From NCBI GenBank assembly GCA_017962085.1, contig JAGCWA010000001.1, positions 1 through 38,549 on the forward strand: a stretch of 38,549 nt of DNA, given 5' to 3'. The stretch comes from Paludibacteraceae bacterium (GTDB taxonomy: Bacteria; Bacteroidota; Bacteroidia; Bacteroidales; Paludibacteraceae). Made by a program: the position numbers and the translations under genes. The notes beneath the pieces were generated by a model. It was not told the origin of the DNA, did not search any database, and saw nothing but the letters and a program-made list of their open reading frames with translations. Shown here one piece after another: positions 6,240-25,336 of the stretch; positions within the stretch are counted from its first letter, which is position 1, and the number at the start of each line of letters is the position of its first letter.

Positions 6240-6689
6240 TTAAGCCAGAAGTGATTTAACTTTTTCGGAGATTGCCCTACCCTCCGCCTTGCCGGCGAGT
6301 TTTTTAGAGGCGACACCCATCACCTTACCCATTTCCTTAGCGGACGTGGCGCCCACCTCGGCGATAATCGCCTTCACGGCGGCGGTAAGTTCCTCGTCGC
6401 TCATCTGCTTCGGCAGGTATGCCTCGATGACAGCCGCCTCAGCCAATTCGTTCTCGGCCAATTCAGGGCGGTTCTGTTCCGTAAAGATAGCAGCGGACTC
6501 CTTTCTTTGTTTCACCATTTTTTGGAGGATCTTCAGGGCCGCATCATCGCTCAATTCACCATCGGAGTTCTTAGCCGTTTTAGCCTCGATGAACTCCTTC
6601 TTGACGCCGCGGAGCGCCTCCAGTTTCACTTTGTCGCGAGCGAGCATCGCCTTTTTGATGTCCTCGCTGATTTGATCAAATAAAGCCAT
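6240..6689 (-). CDS. yqeY: GatB/YqeY domain protein
   Basis: This 149-residue protein has the full YqeY family length. The N-terminus MALFDQISEDIKKAMLARDK and the helical body with EAYLPKQMSDEEL (about 88-100) and the C-terminal GKVMGVASKKLAGKAEG (about 121-137) are typical. The domain is related to the tail of the amidotransferase subunit GatB and is thought to bind tRNA; the cellular role of stand-alone YqeY is not established. It lies 25 bases after ftsZ2 on the same strand and is the last gene of the dcw run, followed directly by the copy 3 hairpin module. YqeY next to ftsZ is common in Bacteroidales. Confidence 0.93.
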   Translation of the reverse strand: MALFDQISEDIKKAMLARDKVKLEALRGVKKEFIEAKTAKNSDGELSDDAALKILQKMVKQRKESAAIFTEQNRPELAENELAEAAVIEAYLPKQMSDEELTAAVKAIIAEVGATSAKEMGKVMGVASKKLAGKAEGRAISEKVKSLLA

Positions 6690-6714
6690 AGACGTATATA
6701 TTTTTATTAACCAT

Positions 6715-7827
6715 TCAATTCATTCTGCCATAGGCGGGGGTAGACATATCCTCCTCCGTCATATCACCGAAATCCGCGAACGATCCGACACTGGCATGAG
6801 CCGGGGTGAAATCCTCCTCGTCATCCCAATTGGTTTTCACATGGGTTCTAATCACAGGGCGCAGACCAGTGGCGACGATCGTGATGCTCAAGTCGTCGCC
6901 CAAGCTATCATCCACCATCACGCCAAGGATAAGGTTGGTCTTGCTGTCGACGCCCTCCTTTTTCCGCAGGTAGTCGCGTATCTCGTTCAGCTCGTTGGCG
7001 TACAAGGATTTCTTCCTGGATGTCATGACGTTGAGCAGCATATCCTTCGCGCCCGACAATTTAGGCTGCAGCAGCAAAGGGGAGTTCAGCGCCTTGGAGA
7101 GCGCCTCCTCGATGCGGTTCTCGCCAGAGGCCTTGCCGTAAGCCATCACCACATCCCCACCATTGCGCAGGGCAGTGCGCACATCCGCCAAATCGATCGT
7201 CATACGTCCGCTCTTGACCACGATGTCCACCATAGCCTTCGCAGCATCCGCCATGAGGTCGTCCGCCTTATCGAAGGCATCCTCGATGGAGAGTTCGCTG
7301 TACAGGTCGAAGATACGCTGGGTATCCACCACCACGACGGCATCCGTGTTCCTCCGCATCTCCTCCAAGCCCTTCAGCGCAAGCTCCATCTTATGCTCCC
7401 CCTCGATTTCAGGAGGCAAACAGACGAAACCGACAGAGAGGATGTCCATGCTCTTGGCGACATGAGCCACGAAAGGACCCGCACCCGTGCCGGTTCCCTT
7501 TCCCAAGCCCGCGGTGATGAAAGCCATTTGGGGGTTATCGCCGAAGAGTTCACGTATCGCATCCAACTGGCTCTCCGCGATCTTAAGGCCCGTTTCAGGG
7601 TCTCCTCCCGCACCCAAGCCATCGCCCAGCTGTAGTTTGTCAGGGATGGTCAAGTCACGCAGCGCCTTGCGGTCGGTATTACAGATGGCGAAGGAGACAT
7701 CCCTCAGCCCCGTGTCGTAGACATGCTGCGCCACATTGCCGCCGCACCCGCCTACGCCGACCACCTTCACGACGGAGGATTGCACCTCGATCACCGGTTG
7801 AATAGATATGCCATCAGCCAAACCCAT
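6715..7827 (-). CDS. Second, divergent FtsZ paralogue
   Basis: This 370-residue tubulin-family GTPase lies 7 bases after ftsZ. The fold is complete: GVGGCGGN (24-31), NTDRKAL (50-56), a G-box reading GLGKGTGTGAGP (107-118), T7 loop TIDLADVRT (210-218) and a C-terminal domain to about residue 322. Two key positions differ from its neighbour: the G-box has Lys110 where FtsZ has glycine, and the T7 loop starts with Thr210 instead of the usual asparagine, though both aspartates (212, 215) remain. It lacks a long linker and ends in a short acidic tail rather than the FLYDNVD-type peptide of the first copy. It may copolymerise with or modulate FtsZ; that is inference. The intact frame and conserved core argue against a pseudogene. 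Confidence 0.9.
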   Translation of the reverse strand: MGLADGISIQPVIEVQSSVVKVVGVGGCGGNVAQHVYDTGLRDVSFAICNTDRKALRDLTIPDKLQLGDGLGAGGDPETGLKIAESQLDAIRELFGDNPQMAFITAGLGKGTGTGAGPFVAHVAKSMDILSVGFVCLPPEIEGEHKMELALKGLEEMRRNTDAVVVVDTQRIFDLYSELSIEDAFDKADDLMADAAKAMVDIVVKSGRMTIDLADVRTALRNGGDVVMAYGKASGENRIEEALSKALNSPLLLQPKLSGAKDMLLNVMTSRKKSLYANELNEIRDYLRKKEGVDSKTNLILGVMVDDSLGDDLSITIVATGLRPVIRTHVKTNWDDEEDFTPAHASVGSFADFGDMTEEDMSTPAYGRMN

Positions 7828-7834
7828 GGTTCAA

Positions 7835-9292
7835 TCAATCCACATTATCGTATAAGAAACCATTCTTCTTTTTAGAAAGCGCGTTCTCCTCGTCCAAGTC
7901 CATCACAGAGATTTGGCCAGACCTTCTCTGCGCGTCGTATTGAGGGTTAGACCTTTGGTACGAAGGCATGTCGAAGTCGGAGTCGTCCATATCCAAGGAG
8001 ACATGAGTCATCTGCCCCATCTGCTTACCGTCAGCATGTTCGTTTCTACCGCCATACTGGTTTTCAGACTTGTAATAGAAACCGTAAGGATCCTGTTGCG
8101 GAGCCTGCTGTTGACTCGGCTGGGACTGCTGATAAGGCTGTGAATTCCTTTGAGGCTGCGTCTGGGATATGGTGAAGACGATATTGTTCTGTTGTTGCTG
8201 TGGCTGGTTCATGTTACGTTGCATATTCGAGCCAGCCCCCATGCCACCGTCCAACGACACATGCTGAGGAGTGGACATAGGACGTTGCGCCTGGTTAGCG
8301 CCCCTCTGCTTGGAGAAGTCGAAACCAGTAGCCACGATGGTGACGCCCAAGTTGTCGCCCAAGGTATCATCCTGCATGACACCCCAGATGATCTTCGTGC
8401 TACCGTCGATTTGCTTAGACAAGTAATCACGGATGATAGTCACCTCGTTGGTAGTGATTCTGCACTCCTTGCTATGGGTGATGTTCAGCAAAATATTCTT
8501 CGCGCCGGAGAGGTTGGTGCTAACCAGCAATGGAGAGTCCAAAGCCTGTTGGATAGCGGCGATGGCACGATCTTGTCCGTTCGCCTTGGCCGCACCCATG
8601 ATAGCGTCTCCACTGTCCGTCATGACCGTTCTGACATCCGCCATATCTATGTTCATACGTCCCGAAAGGGTGATGATCTCCGCGATGCCCTTAGCGGCGG
8701 TCGCCAGGATCTCGTCGCCTTTGGAATAGGCGTCTTCCAGGAACATATCACCGTACATGTCCAGTATCTTCTGCGAATTGATGATGAGGATCGCGTCGAC
8801 GTTCTTCTTCATCTCCTCGACGCCAGCCAAAGCCTGGTTCACCTTCTCGTCGCCCTCGAAGAGTGCGGGGATGGTGACGATAGCCACCGTGAGGATACCC
8901 TTCTCCTTAGCAGTTTTGGCGATGAGGGGAGCGGCGCCCGTACCCGTACCGCCACCCATGCCGGCAGTGATGAAGACCATCTCGGTATGGTCGTCCAAGA
9001 TAGCGTTGATCTGTTCGATAGACTTCTGCGCCTCTTGGTAGCCCACTTCAGGGATGCAACCAGCGCCCAAGCCCTTTTCGCCCAATTGGATCTTCGTAGG
9101 AACAGGCGATTTGCGCAAATCCTGCTTATCCGTGTTGCAGACAACAAAATTCACGTTCTTCACGCCCATGTTGTACATATAGTTGACAGCGTTTCCACCG
9201 CAACCACCCACACCAATCACCTTGATGATCGGTTGTTCTTGCTCCTCAATCTCTTCGTTGAGTTCGTCTTCTGTAAATTGGTTCTCGTTCAT
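7835..9292 (-). CDS. ftsZ: Cell division protein FtsZ
   Basis: FtsZ is the GTP-dependent tubulin homologue that forms the Z ring at midcell and recruits the divisome. The 485-residue protein has the nucleotide-binding GVGGCGGNAV (27-36), the canonical G-box GMGGGTGTGAAP (111-122), T7 loop NIDMADVR (214-221) and an intact C-terminal domain to about 325. A long Gln/Asn/Pro-rich linker (about 330-470) follows, then a terminal KKKNGFLYDNVD, likely the peptide that binds FtsA and other partners. It is longer than E. coli FtsZ (383) because of the linker. It sits after ftsA in the dcw run with a 50-base gap and directly before the paralogue. Confidence 0.98.
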   Translation of the reverse strand: MNENQFTEDELNEEIEEQEQPIIKVIGVGGCGGNAVNYMYNMGVKNVNFVVCNTDKQDLRKSPVPTKIQLGEKGLGAGCIPEVGYQEAQKSIEQINAILDDHTEMVFITAGMGGGTGTGAAPLIAKTAKEKGILTVAIVTIPALFEGDEKVNQALAGVEEMKKNVDAILIINSQKILDMYGDMFLEDAYSKGDEILATAAKGIAEIITLSGRMNIDMADVRTVMTDSGDAIMGAAKANGQDRAIAAIQQALDSPLLVSTNLSGAKNILLNITHSKECRITTNEVTIIRDYLSKQIDGSTKIIWGVMQDDTLGDNLGVTIVATGFDFSKQRGANQAQRPMSTPQHVSLDGGMGAGSNMQRNMNQPQQQQNNIVFTISQTQPQRNSQPYQQSQPSQQQAPQQDPYGFYYKSENQYGGRNEHADGKQMGQMTHVSLDMDDSDFDMPSYQRSNPQYDAQRRSGQISVMDLDEENALSKKKNGFLYDNVD

Positions 9293-9342
9293 ATATTTAA
9301 TGTTTTTATTTCCTTACAATTAACAAGCGGTGTGCGGTGGCA

Positions 9343-10707
9343 TCACTCCTCGAAGAACTCGTCCACCTTGCCTTCCACCTTCCCTTTCAGTTTACCCCAG
9401 AGGGAAGGGAAGATACGGCCGGTATTAGCGTCCTTCTTGCTCTTCTTAGGCCTCGTGTCCGAAGACTCGCGTATCGTGACGCAACCACTCTCAGCGGCCA
9501 TCATGATGCCCATCACGGAAGCGTATGACACATCCGCGAACTCCTCCGACTCCGTATGGTTCGAGAGCACACGGATATCGCCGAAACGGGTCGGGATGCC
9601 AGTCTCCTTCTCGATCTTCTCGATCAGGTTGCATTGCTTAGCGCCGCCACCCACCACGACGATGGAATCCAGGCAAGAGCTATAGCCGGACTTGGTCATC
9701 GCAGCAGTGATGCGCGCGAGGAAGTCCGTCAAGCGGGACTCGATGATACCCGCCAGATAGTCCGTCTGCACTTCGCGCACGACGCCCTCACCCACGACAA
9801 CGTCCAGTATGAGCGGCTCCGTGACCATAGACTGCAAGGCCAAGCCATACTTGCTGGTCTTCAATTTCTCCGCACACCTCCAAGGCAATTTCAGGGAGGC
9901 GATATCCTGCGTGATCAGGTCGCTACCGAAGTTGAAGACATGCAAGTAGCGGAGTTTATTCTCGTGATAGATGGAGAGCGAAATGGTCTGTGCACCGAAA
10001 TCGAGGAGCATACAGCCCAACTCCTTCTGTCCAGGAGAGAGCACCGCATCCGACAGATGGCGGGACGACAAGACGAAGTGAGGAGTAACCCTGATGTTGG
10101 AGGCGGCATCCGGGCTTGAGCTGGAATTGATACGCTCGAAGCATTTTATCAAATTATCCTCCACGGAATTATCTCCATGGATATTCAGGAAACGCGCGCG
10201 CAGGTTATCGCACACGCAGCCCACAGGGTCATCCACCACCATGCCATCCACGACATACTCCAGCGGAACGACCTCCAGGATCCTATGCGAAGCGTCAACC
10301 CTCATGCGTTTATTCTCCTCCTCCATCGAATAGATGGTCTCTTCGGAGACCGGCTCGGAGCTCAACAAACGGCTCAGTTCATTCACCTCGCCATGGATGG
10401 TCCTGCCATGGACACCCACATACACGTTCGAAATATCATACGAAATGCGCAAAGAGGGATCATCCGCCGACGAGTTCAACAAACTATTCAACAGGTTCCT
10501 CAGCTTTATGATCAATTGTTTGATATGAAGCGCCGCATTATCAATATTAATAACGACACCATTCACGATACTACCCTCAGAAGGGACAGAAATCGCCCGA
10601 AGGATATCCAATTTACCCTCCTTGTTCTTGTGGCCAATCACGCCACGGATATTGCGGCTTCCCAAATCCACCGCAACCACCACATCCGAATACTTAATCT
10701 CGTCCAT
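9343..10707 (-). CDS. ftsA: Cell division protein FtsA
   Basis: FtsA is an actin-like ATPase that tethers FtsZ to the membrane and recruits later divisome proteins. I chose the ATG at 10707 (454 residues, MDEIKYSDVVVAVDLGS) rather than the longer frame from 10749. It is preceded by TAGGAGGAGCAAT, an unusually clear Shine-Dalgarno for this phylum, and the longer start would overlap ftsQ. Visible elements are phosphate-1 DLGSRNIRG near the start, phosphate-2 LLDFGAQTISLS in the middle, the adenosine segment VVVGGGAKQ near residue 360, and a C-terminal amphipathic segment SLWGKLKGKVEGKVDEFF for membrane attachment. Confidence 0.95.
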   Translation of the reverse strand: MDEIKYSDVVVAVDLGSRNIRGVIGHKNKEGKLDILRAISVPSEGSIVNGVVINIDNAALHIKQLIIKLRNLLNSLLNSSADDPSLRISYDISNVYVGVHGRTIHGEVNELSRLLSSEPVSEETIYSMEEENKRMRVDASHRILEVVPLEYVVDGMVVDDPVGCVCDNLRARFLNIHGDNSVEDNLIKCFERINSSSSPDAASNIRVTPHFVLSSRHLSDAVLSPGQKELGCMLLDFGAQTISLSIYHENKLRYLHVFNFGSDLITQDIASLKLPWRCAEKLKTSKYGLALQSMVTEPLILDVVVGEGVVREVQTDYLAGIIESRLTDFLARITAAMTKSGYSSCLDSIVVVGGGAKQCNLIEKIEKETGIPTRFGDIRVLSNHTESEEFADVSYASVMGIMMAAESGCVTIRESSDTRPKKSKKDANTGRIFPSLWGKLKGKVEGKVDEFFEE

Positions 10708-10717
10708 ATTGCTCCTC

Positions 10718-11473
10718 CTATTTTTTTGTACAAACGACCTGGCCTTCATACTTCAGCGTGATCTGTTTGTATTTATTCCAACCTATTTTATTAAAACCCT
10801 CCACGTATAAAGCGTAGAGCTTGTCCAACTTTTCCTTGTAATTTTCCAACGTGCCCATAAGAATCAGTTGGTCGCCCACGCGAGGCACCAGCGTCACCTC
10901 CCCGTTCTTCGCCACATCGATCTGCTCGATCTGCGCATTCCAGAAAGAATGGTCACGGAGAAACAAGGCAAATTCGCCCAAATCGCCCAACGCCAACTCC
11001 TTAGTGACGTAACCCGTAGCAATCGGCACGTAAGCGGTGAAGACTGAAGAGAGCGGCATTATCTTGCGCTCGCTATCGACATAGAAATCACCATACATTC
11101 CCTTCACCCGCAGGATCGGCTCACGCTGCGTTACCACAATCCGCAACTCCCCGTTAGGCGTCTTGAAACACTCGGCGGTCTTGATACGGGACTTTCCCCT
11201 CAGGTAATTCTCCATATAATCCGTATCGATATGGTCCAAGCGCTTACCGTCAGGGCAGACCGACTTGTCCTTCAAGAGTTCCTTCACATCATCCTGGGTC
11301 ACAAAATTCAGTTGGTCAGCATCACTGATGGTCACACGAATCATAGGCCATTTACAAATCATCTCGTCCTGATTACAGCGAGCCATCTTATAGGCGAACA
11401 TCTTCGCGAACGACAAATAGCCGATCACCAAGACAACCAACGATATTTTCACCCAACGTTTATGTAACATCAC
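10718..11473 (-). CDS. ftsQ: Cell division protein FtsQ
   Basis: FtsQ is a bitopic membrane protein that links early and late divisome proteins by binding FtsL/FtsB-type partners. The 251-residue protein has a short basic cytoplasmic start, one membrane span (about 9-28), a POTRA-like segment (about 45-115) and the FtsQ domain containing REPILRVKG and the FWNAQIEQIDV region. Family sequence conservation is low, but size, topology and position between murC and ftsA are decisive. The gap to ftsA is 10 bases and to murC 14 bases. Confidence 0.92.
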   Translation of the reverse strand: MMLHKRWVKISLVVLVIGYLSFAKMFAYKMARCNQDEMICKWPMIRVTISDADQLNFVTQDDVKELLKDKSVCPDGKRLDHIDTDYMENYLRGKSRIKTAECFKTPNGELRIVVTQREPILRVKGMYGDFYVDSERKIMPLSSVFTAYVPIATGYVTKELALGDLGEFALFLRDHSFWNAQIEQIDVAKNGEVTLVPRVGDQLILMGTLENYKEKLDKLYALYVEGFNKIGWNKYKQITLKYEGQVVCTKK

Positions 11474-23495: not shown

Positions 23496-24323
23496 ATGGA
23501 GACTAAAAATTCATCAAAGGATAAGATAAATATTGACGAGATATTGGATAAAAAAATACCAAAAATCAAAAAAAGAATTCCCAAATTTCTCATCAATTGG
23601 CTGAAAAAGACCATCCATGAGGATGAAATCAACTATATTTTCAGGACTTACGGACATTTATGGGGGCATGATTTCGCGGAGACGGTGCTGCGCGACCACT
23701 TCCACATCCGTTTCAACATCATCGGAGAGGAGAACATTCCGCAGGATTCGAAGGTGATCTTCGCCTCCAACCACCCGTTGGGCGGCGCGGACGGCATCGC
23801 GCTGATCCAGGTGCTCACCAACCACTACAAGCAGCTGCAGGTGCCGGTGAACGACTTCCTCATGTACGTCGACAACCTGAAGGAGTTCTTTATCCCGATC
23901 AGTAAAATAGGGGGTCAGGCTAGGAATACGGGCGAACTCATCAACGAAGCGTGCGAATCGGACGCCGCCATCCTCTTCTTTCCAGCCGGACAATGTTCGA
24001 GGAGACAAAAAGACGGAAAAATAAAAGATAACGAATGGAAAAAAACTTTCATTAAAAAGGCTGTACAATATCATCGAAATATTATACCTTTGTATTTCGA
24101 GGGGGAAAACTCAAAGTTCTTTTACAACTTAGCCTACTATCGCTCCAAGTTGGGGATTAAAGCCAACATCGAGATGTTGTTCCTCTCCGACGAGCTATTC
24201 AAACAGAAAGACAAAACTTTCACTGTTAAGATAGGAGAGCCCATCCCCTACGAGACTTTCACGAAGGAGAAAACCGAGTCAGAATGGGCAGAATGGGTAA
24301 AGCAGAAGGCTTACAGTTTATAA
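23496..24323 (+). CDS. glsA: Lysophospholipid-type O-acyltransferase, probable glycine-lipid synthase subunit
   Basis: This 275-residue PlsC-family acyltransferase has the catalytic segment SNHPLGGADG (91-100, His93 and Asp99) and the acceptor-binding LFFPAGQCSRRQ (about 164-175). The N-terminal 40 residues are very basic, suiting a peripheral membrane enzyme. In Bacteroides thetaiotaomicron a PlsC-like GlsA lies beside the GNAT-like GlsB, and together they make glycine lipids: GlsB N-acylates glycine and GlsA adds the second, ester-linked acyl chain. The same pairing here supports the name. An alternative is a general 1-acylglycerol-phosphate acyltransferase. The first and middle parts differ in base composition, AT-rich at the start and GC-rich around 23680-23900. 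Confidence 0.72.
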   Translation: METKNSSKDKINIDEILDKKIPKIKKRIPKFLINWLKKTIHEDEINYIFRTYGHLWGHDFAETVLRDHFHIRFNIIGEENIPQDSKVIFASNHPLGGADGIALIQVLTNHYKQLQVPVNDFLMYVDNLKEFFIPISKIGGQARNTGELINEACESDAAILFFPAGQCSRRQKDGKIKDNEWKKTFIKKAVQYHRNIIPLYFEGENSKFFYNLAYYRSKLGIKANIEMLFLSDELFKQKDKTFTVKIGEPIPYETFTKEKTESEWAEWVKQKAYSL

Positions 24324-24361
24324 GGAAGGAAAGTTACCCAAACGACAAAAAAACACATTAA

Positions 24362-25336
24362 ATGGAAGACATCATCGACCCAATTAACCCCGACCTGTTA
24401 GTCGAGGAGTTGACAAAAGATAAGTTGTTGCGCAAGACAAACAAGTGCAACAACGAAATATATGTGGTCACACAACACAATGCTCCCAACGTCATGAGAG
24501 AGATTGGTCGTTTGCGCGAGATCTCGTTCCGCACCGCCGGTGGTGGCGTGGGATTATCCTGCGACATCGATGAATACGATACCATGGAGCACCCTTACCA
24601 CCAACTCATTGTGTGGAATCCGGAAGAGAGGGAAATCATCGGAGGATATAGGTACTTGCATGGCTCCGAGGCTTCGTTCTTCGAGGACGGCAGCCCTAAG
24701 CTCACCTCTTCCCACCTCTTCGCCTACTCAGAGAAGTTCATCAAGGAGTTCCTTCCTTACACCATAGAGCTCGGACGCTCCTTCGTCCGTCCGGAATACC
24801 AATCATCCCGCATGGGCGCCAAAAGCCTCTATGCCTTGGACAACCTTTGGGACGGATTGGGCGCATTGATGGTATCCATCCCTCAATCCAAGTATTTCTT
24901 CGGGAAAGCGACCATCTACCCTTCCTTCAAGGAGGATGCGAGGTCCTTCATCATGTACTTCATGCACAAGTACTTCCCGGACAACGACAAACTGGTCTTC
25001 CCTAAGATTCCAGTGAAATTCGACGACAACATCAAGGAGATGGAGAAAATCTTCTGCGGAGGAAACTACAAGGAGGACTATAGTATCCTGAAGAAACAGA
25101 TCAAGCTTCTGGGACACAACATTCCACCGCTCATCAACGCCTACATGGCGCTCTCCCCTACCATGCGCACCTTCGGCTCCTGCATCAACGACGAGTTCAA
25201 TGATGTGCTGGAGACGGGCCTCATGATCACCATCGAGGAGATCTTCGAGGAGAAACGCGTCCGCCACGTGCAAACGTACTTGGAGGAGAAGATCAACGAG
25301 GATAATATGGGGGTCGGATACGGAAAGATTTGCTAA
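24362..25336 (+). CDS. glsB: GNAT-fold N-acyltransferase, probable glycine-lipid synthase subunit
   Basis: This 324-residue protein belongs to the 'hemolysin'/OlsB-like GNAT acyltransferase group, which transfers acyl chains from acyl-ACP to an amino acid amine. Visible features are VMREIGRLREISFRTAGG (about 45-62), REIIGGYRYLHGSEA, TIELGRSFVRPEYQ (a GNAT core strand, about 133-146) and MYFMHKYFPD. Downstream of the GNAT core there is an extra domain of about 120 residues. It starts 38 bases after glsA on the same strand and is followed by a strong terminator, so the two form a two-gene operon. The product would be an N-acyl glycine, precursor of Bacteroides glycine or serine-glycine lipids. 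Confidence 0.75.
   Translation: MEDIIDPINPDLLVEELTKDKLLRKTNKCNNEIYVVTQHNAPNVMREIGRLREISFRTAGGGVGLSCDIDEYDTMEHPYHQLIVWNPEEREIIGGYRYLHGSEASFFEDGSPKLTSSHLFAYSEKFIKEFLPYTIELGRSFVRPEYQSSRMGAKSLYALDNLWDGLGALMVSIPQSKYFFGKATIYPSFKEDARSFIMYFMHKYFPDNDKLVFPKIPVKFDDNIKEMEKIFCGGNYKEDYSILKKQIKLLGHNIPPLINAYMALSPTMRTFGSCINDEFNDVLETGLMITIEEIFEEKRVRHVQTYLEEKINEDNMGVGYGKIC

Follow-up and report, generated by a model that had tools for sequence, protein, structure and literature searches.

A second, short-tailed FtsZ encoded next to ftsZ in the division gene cluster of a Paludibacteraceae bacterium

The tandem ftsZ locus

The DNA analyzed here (the window) is a stretch of 38,549 nucleotides from a Paludibacteraceae bacterium of the order Bacteroidales (assembly GCA_017962085.1, contig JAGCWA010000001.1, positions 1 to 38,549). 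In its division and cell wall (dcw) cluster the gene order on the minus strand is ftsQ-ftsA-ftsZa-ftsZb-yqeY, where ftsZa is a canonical ftsZ and ftsZb a second copy (Table 1). The tandem arrangement stated in the preliminary description of this DNA is thus present, with two full-length FtsZ open reading frames on one strand and 7 bases between them, and FtsZa and FtsZb are the only two FtsZ matches in this genome. The gap is 7 bases in six of the nine species that have the pair and 4 and 23 bases in two others; ftsZb of genome G008 has no ATG near the ftsZa stop and a GTG at 10. Judging from this spacing, the two genes probably lie on one transcript. No terminator was found between ftsZa and yqeY in a promoter and terminator scan that is of little weight, as its total number of sites was no higher than in shuffled sequence. 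An assembly artefact is ruled out by the identical arrangement on nine contigs from nine genomes.

Table 1. Positions of the genes and motifs discussed, in window coordinates
Feature	Position	Strand	Evidence or remark
ftsZa, canonical FtsZ, 485 residues	7835..9292	-	TIGR00065 341.1 bits, above cut-off 295.2
ftsZb, second FtsZ, 370 residues	6715..7827	-	PF00091 116, PF12327 61, TIGR00065 273.4 bits
Spacer from ftsZa stop to ftsZb ATG, 7 bases	7828..7834	-	
Lys110 codon of FtsZb, T4 G-box (E. coli Gly106)	7498..7500	-	
T7 loop T-I-D-L-A-D, FtsZb residues 210-215	7183..7200	-	
PAYGR, C-terminal peptide, FtsZb residues 364-368	6724..6738	-	
PSYQR, like the C-terminal peptide, FtsZa residues 443-447	7952..7966	-	
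FLYDNVD at FtsZa terminus	7838..7858	-	Missing from FtsZb
ftsA	9343..10749	-	Profile match
ftsQ	10718..11473	-	Named by position and length; no Pfam match
yqeY-like gene, downstream neighbor	6240..6689	-	PF09424 161.9 bits

Family membership and predicted fold

FtsZb exceeds the gathering scores of PF00091 (33 bits) and PF12327 (27 bits), both of which also match FtsZa, and it is 44% identical to FtsZa (E = 3e-96). Its sequence matched 52 distinct PDB sequences, the top one being an FtsZ (E = 1.3e-61). The AlphaFold2 model has a mean predicted local distance difference test (pLDDT) score of 79.6, with core blocks mostly above 80, an unstructured region at residues 329 to 354 (pLDDT < 50) and a short helix of low confidence at residues 358 to 362. 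When this model was compared with the PDB using Foldseek, the top matches were FtsZ chains (E = 4.9e-38, template modeling score 0.90 by target), and the best 50 matches are all FtsZ. The E-values of the FtsZa and PDB matches, together with the matches of the predicted structure to solved FtsZ chains, indicate that the resemblance is not due to chance, and the model agrees with the earlier statement that the second copy has kept the FtsZ fold.

Nucleotide-site and T7 residues

The roles of individual E. coli FtsZ residues in the nucleotide site and in catalysis are known, and residues were compared using E. coli numbering. N43, T44, D45, T108, E138, D187, D209, and D212 are conserved in all nine FtsZb orthologs; the last two are the T7 aspartates (D212 and D215 in FtsZb), which had been correctly described as retained. 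The T7 loop was said to start with threonine in place of asparagine, which is the case in the window (Thr210, E. coli N207) and in five of the nine orthologs overall, the other four having asparagine.

The lysine noticed in the glycine run of the G-box (Lys110) is present in nine of nine orthologs, which read GKGTGTG and not GGGTGTG, while position 106 is glycine in 9/9 FtsZa and in 24/24 single-copy FtsZs used for comparison, a set chosen by us that contains no Porphyromonas or Chlorobiales. As a cue to specialization it is weakened, since it is not peculiar to second copies. It does recur among them (G058, G381, and all five read in genus g5), a repeated rise that is notable, and it also occurs in two Porphyromonas and 13 Chlorobiales loci, each with one ftsZ. 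A whole-genome search of six such Porphyromonas or Chlorobiales genomes, whose completeness is not stated in the data, returned one FtsZ match in five and two in the remaining one. The lysine therefore appears compatible with being the sole division FtsZ and need not mean a dead GTPase; that interpretation is unsupported, with lysine in single-FtsZ genomes and T108, E138, and the T7 aspartates conserved. The Chlorobiales FtsZs in question (loci L119, L123, L134, and others) have the G-box GKGTGTG, and the tails of Chlorobiaceae FtsZs carry two PAYxR motifs, 45 to 53 residues apart.

The C-terminal tails

The second copy had been described as having lost both the long linker and the terminal peptide. 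Loss of the long linker is confirmed by tails of 49 to 66 residues in FtsZb against 119 to 171 in FtsZa. Loss of the peptide is not: PAYGR at the end of the window's FtsZb aligns with the C-terminal peptide of other FtsZs (E. coli FtsZ, for comparison, ends in ..LDIPAFLRKQAD), the terminus is PAYGR, PAYDR, or PAYER in eight of the nine orthologs, the window's included, and P364 and R368 (FtsZb numbering) are invariant across 18/18 FtsZs of alignment A2, which consists of 18 rows of our choice, four of them FtsZb and none from Prevotella. Loss of the anchoring peptide is ruled out by these data, and FtsZb likely has its own anchoring peptide on a short leash. In FtsZa the peptide is PSYQR or PTYAR (PSFTV in G009), so that a P-x-Y-x-R-like peptide occurs in 8/9 FtsZb and 8/9 FtsZa, with G009 deviating in both. 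FtsZa terminates in FLYDNVD, FLYNNVD, or FLHNNVD. An FLxxNVD-like end is also carried by the single FtsZs of G002, G003, G004, and G014 from the same genus. In two further genomes of this genus, G006 and G012 (L037 and L043), the only FtsZ is highly divergent, on a shared branch of 1.68, and the patterns detect no C-terminal peptide and no FLxxNVD end in it.

These residues and tails bear on the earlier idea of a capping modulator, in which FtsZb would attach to the ends of FtsZa filaments, capping or poisoning them while not hydrolyzing properly itself. The G-box lysine in 9/9 orthologs, threonine at the start of T7 in 5/9, cysteine at T132, threonine at N165, and other fixed changes would suit such a protein. 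However, the same lysine is found in FtsZ of Porphyromonas and Chlorobiales, with a single FtsZ match in five of the six genomes searched, and a sole FtsZ must presumably hydrolyze guanosine triphosphate (GTP); T108, E138, and both T7 aspartates are conserved, and eight of nine orthologs have the C-terminal peptide. The cap idea rested on a lost peptide and an odd G-box; with the peptide present and this G-box also found in genomes with one FtsZ match, we consider the cap rather improbable, and FtsZb looks more like a polymerizing, membrane-linked FtsZ.

Distribution and selection

Within the genus of the window (g1), FtsZb was found in nine of 16 genomes, the window's counted, always between ftsZa and yqeY; six others have one ftsZ match and one (G013) has none. 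The orthologs are 57% to 99% identical to the window's FtsZb. Where the loci extend that far, MurC and MurG are 84% to 99% identical to the window's in the nine FtsZb genomes versus 72% to 78% in the six single-ftsZ genomes, which makes the nine look like one subclade. A scan of named records, limited to the best 80 of 516 and thus not a census, gave FtsZb in three: Paludibacteraceae RGIG9770 (yak omasum), Bacteroidales UBA1181, and Paludibacteraceae Tb.RUG.361.

FtsZb is under purifying selection, with pairwise ratios of nonsynonymous to synonymous substitution rates (dN/dS) of 0.045 to 0.23 in pairs with unsaturated dS, the highest value being that of the window versus G008. In one comparison its dN/dS exceeds that of FtsZa in six of eight unsaturated pairs and is lower in the other two (0.050 and 0.045 vs 0.089 and 0.088). 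Core identity has a minimum of 65% and a median of 72% among FtsZb, against 87% and 97% among FtsZa, and is 47% to 52% between the two paralogs of one species.

Such distance between paralogs that are each conserved speaks for an FtsZb that forms its own filament or ring at another time or place (before FtsZa, or for shape) and does not mix with FtsZa. The catalytic loops on both polymer faces also look intact, and archaeal FtsZ1 and FtsZ2 with different filaments and tethers exist (PMC12583498). On the other side, the adjacency of the genes, with the 7-base gap in six of nine species, favors shared dosage, and PAYGR points to an anchor in common with FtsZa, so that a separate ring is in our view unlikely, if worth keeping in mind.

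Origin of ftsZb

FtsZa and FtsZb of these species each form a clade, and the two clades are sisters with support of 98/92 in a 55-row tree. The sister grouping recurs at 99/96 in a 96-row tree (of 170 sequences, with tails and G-box column removed) and at 99/93 in a 97-row tree (of 186, with seven of the nine species included). These two trees leave out truncated or odd rows, most Prevotella, all Chlorobi, and some near-copies, and the totals of 170 and 186 are our own sums of the listed rows. The stem of FtsZb in the 96-row tree is 1.14 changes per column, compared with 0.26 for FtsZa. FtsZb and FtsZa have four derived residues in common (Cys28, Arg208, Ile211, and Met304 of FtsZb), whereas FtsZb has just one in common with the g5 second copies, the G-box lysine, and likewise just one with the g20 second copies. 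Because FtsZb groups with the FtsZa of its own species and shares these four residues with it, we prefer a duplication within this lineage, though it is not proven.

A common clade for the second copies of g1, g5, g20, and g6 was rejected by the approximately unbiased (AU) test (p = 0.018). The same test did not reject the second copies of g1 and g5 alone as one clade (p = 0.157), and the two share the G-box lysine and the downstream position, as they would if both went back to a single older duplication, since lost in other lineages. We regard this as improbable given that both large trees place FtsZb with the FtsZa of its own genus (99/96 and 99/93), that four derived residues are shared with FtsZa against one with g5, and that the lysine is found in other lineages too.

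The preliminary description would have been abandoned had the second copy proved to be recent, relaxed, and confined to this genome. The orthologs in 9/16 genomes, the long FtsZb stem, and the low dN/dS exclude this and rule out a recent or decaying duplicate; the same three findings support the proposal of duplication followed by specialization. A phage origin was also rejected, as viral_contigs gave 306 pattern matches of which none was confirmed by tblastn.

Adjacent ftsZ copies elsewhere in Bacteroidales

Searching Bacteroidales for further second copies, and placing them in trees with FtsZa, showed that the window is not a lone case and that tandem ftsZ recurs in the order. At the family level, 250 genomes were drawn evenly; by our count 35 of them have at least two FtsZ matches, and 23 of these 35, the window's included, were read. 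Adjacent pairs downstream of ftsA were seen in nine genomes of g1, five of g5, one of g6, and four of g20, while the copies are non-adjacent in G029, G030, and G179, and in G109 within the stretch read. In an order-wide sample of 129 genomes from 108 families, with completeness of at least 90, at least two FtsZ matches occur in 14, and nine (eight families), all of which were read, have adjacent copies, in two of the nine as triplets. Three more adjacent pairs (L107, L110, and L118) come from rumen-named Bacteroidales metagenome-assembled genomes (MAGs). Outside the window's genus, adjacent copies behind ftsA were thus recorded in G019, G020, G034, G051, G058, G286, G320, G323, G335, and G354 as well as at these three loci.

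The tails are distributed differently among these tandem copies. Judged by eye, the FLxxNVD-like end sits on the last copy in G286, G320 (loosely), G335, G323, G058/G381, g5, and g20, on the first copy in the window's genus and in G020, and on neither copy in G354, G051, L107, L110, and L118; in seven of the 10 G genomes listed above the last copy has this end and the upstream copies are without it. In g5 (L046, L162 to L165) it is the divergent second copy with the G-box lysine that carries the FLxxNVD-like end and the first that has lost it, opposite to what is seen in the window's genus. Behind ftsA of G286 and G320 (L189, L190) there are ftsZ triplets, and the peptide pattern matches the last copy alone.

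No claim is made that upstream copies in other families end in an amphipathic membrane helix, as only one of 16 tails clearly exceeded shuffles in hydrophobic moment. Shuffles reached the value of the tail in 2/500 cases for G335, 41/500 for G354, 61/500 for G034, 75/500 for copy 1 of G286, and 193 to 462/500 for the other 12; the 16 tails included the window's FtsZb and one downstream copy of G020.

Clades uniting the copies of one pair support separate duplications in g1, g20, G020, and the L107 type. Their support in the 97-row and 96-row trees is 96/89 but 93/0 for g20; for G020 the values are 90/85 and 99/84, and for the L107 type 97/77 and 96/57. The broader statement, that Z rings of two or three FtsZs arose several times independently in this one order by tandem dcw duplications, with the tails dealt out differently and the G-box change from glycine to lysine recurring in the second copy, seems to us about evenly poised between right and wrong.

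Comparison with known systems

Of the chloroplast paralogs FtsZ1/FtsZ2 (FtsZB/FtsZA), one lacks the C-terminal peptide, and rhizobia carry extra ftsZ copies. In contrast to the chloroplast type, both paralogs here have a P-x-Y-x-R-like peptide except in G009, and the window's pair consists of adjacent bacterial genes. The likeness lies in having two FtsZ paralogs; in chloroplasts the second adjusts how dynamic or stable the first is, being described as co-assembling and raising ring dynamics (PMC12343686) and as restraining filament stability (PMC8142252). The latter source describes bacterial Z rings as made of a single FtsZ. The archaeal FtsZ1/FtsZ2 of Haloferax and Odinarchaeota resemble the present case in that one cell has two FtsZs, which in archaea have different filaments and tethers; in Odinarchaeota the two form filaments of different shape and are tethered to the membrane differently (PMC12583498). 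The archaeal split is ancient, the duplication preceding archaeal diversification (PMC9871819), unlike FtsZb, which stands beside the FtsZa of its own genus. Extra copies in the candidate phyla radiation (CPR) and Bipolaricaulota ("Bipolaricuta") are likewise second bacterial ftsZ genes, with the difference that, according to PMC9871819, in the few bacteria with two copies the extra gene lies outside the dcw cluster, and ftsZb lies inside it. The bacterial tree described there keeps one sequence per order, and tandem pairs could for this reason have escaped that survey. A literature search on FtsZ paralogs and duplication, covering titles and abstract openings of the entries listed, few subscription papers among them, found no description of a tandem dcw pair in Bacteroidales.

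Proposed function of FtsZb

On the whole we lean toward ftsZb being a functional second ftsZ, derived by tandem duplication, whose short-linker product co-assembles with FtsZa in one Z ring. The duplication would have taken place in the ancestor of one subclade of this genus. FtsZb would be translated from a message common with FtsZa, would bind and hydrolyze GTP, and would be tethered through its C-terminal peptide to the partner of FtsZa (FtsA or a functional equivalent). Within a single Z ring shared with FtsZa, it may be a subunit of short linker and different pace that governs how closely the filaments are held to the membrane and how quickly they are renewed, a role for which the second FtsZ of chloroplasts, with its effect on dynamics, offers a parallel.

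Several observations, besides the AU result for g1 and g5 given above, weigh against this picture. FtsZb falls below the cut-off of the FtsZ equivalog model TIGR00065 of NCBIfam (273.4 vs 295.2 bits) and is therefore classed as a paralog within the FtsZ family and not as an equivalog. Two changes, G106 to lysine and T132 to cysteine, are fixed in 9/9 FtsZb. So is N165 to threonine, a position with serine in FtsZa and threonine in 8/24 single-copy FtsZs, and so are G21 to cysteine and R142 to lysine, which FtsZa has likewise and which therefore probably predate the split; the altered nucleotide-site positions thus appear to be mostly common to FtsZa or single-copy FtsZs. The C-terminal peptide is absent from one of nine FtsZb (G009), and its pattern had no match in the single FtsZs of G002, G003, G004, and G014 or in many Prevotella rows; there may therefore be other anchors besides the peptide in this group. 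The low identity between FtsZa and FtsZb and the faster evolution of FtsZb would also fit a separate filament, and all three named FtsZb genomes are MAGs.

Bacterial division is usually modeled with one FtsZ per cell, from which a conserved pair inside the cluster of these uncultured gut bacteria departs, and division rings of two FtsZs may have arisen repeatedly among bacteria. If the repeated origins are true, bacteria would have arrived independently, and many times over, at the dual-FtsZ arrangement that chloroplasts and archaea have. Natural short-linker paralogs with their parallel cases would allow the roles of linker length, C-terminal peptide, and G-box glycine to be tested by comparison of the copies.

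Divergence of the ftsQ-yqeY block

The five genes ftsQ-ftsA-ftsZa-ftsZb-yqeY (6240-11473) have dS values of 0.48 to 1.38 against G007 and G005 (medians 0.98 and 0.94), compared with medians of 0.27 (p < 0.0001) and 0.32 (p = 0.0005) for 24 other genes of the window. Against G001, G010, G015, G008, and G009 the block is not significantly elevated (p = 0.08 to 0.86). It looks like a set of recombined divergent alleles. The raised values toward G007 and G005 could also be read as escape, with FtsZb as a spare or decoy against inhibitors of FtsZ or FtsA from phages or rival bacteria and the diversification of ftsQ to yqeY as its trace; since the elevation is not significant in the other five comparisons and ordinary recombination yields the identical pattern, we hold this to be very improbable. 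Elsewhere in the window, glsA and glsB (glycine lipid synthesis according to NCBIfam; 23496-25336) adjoin mraZ.

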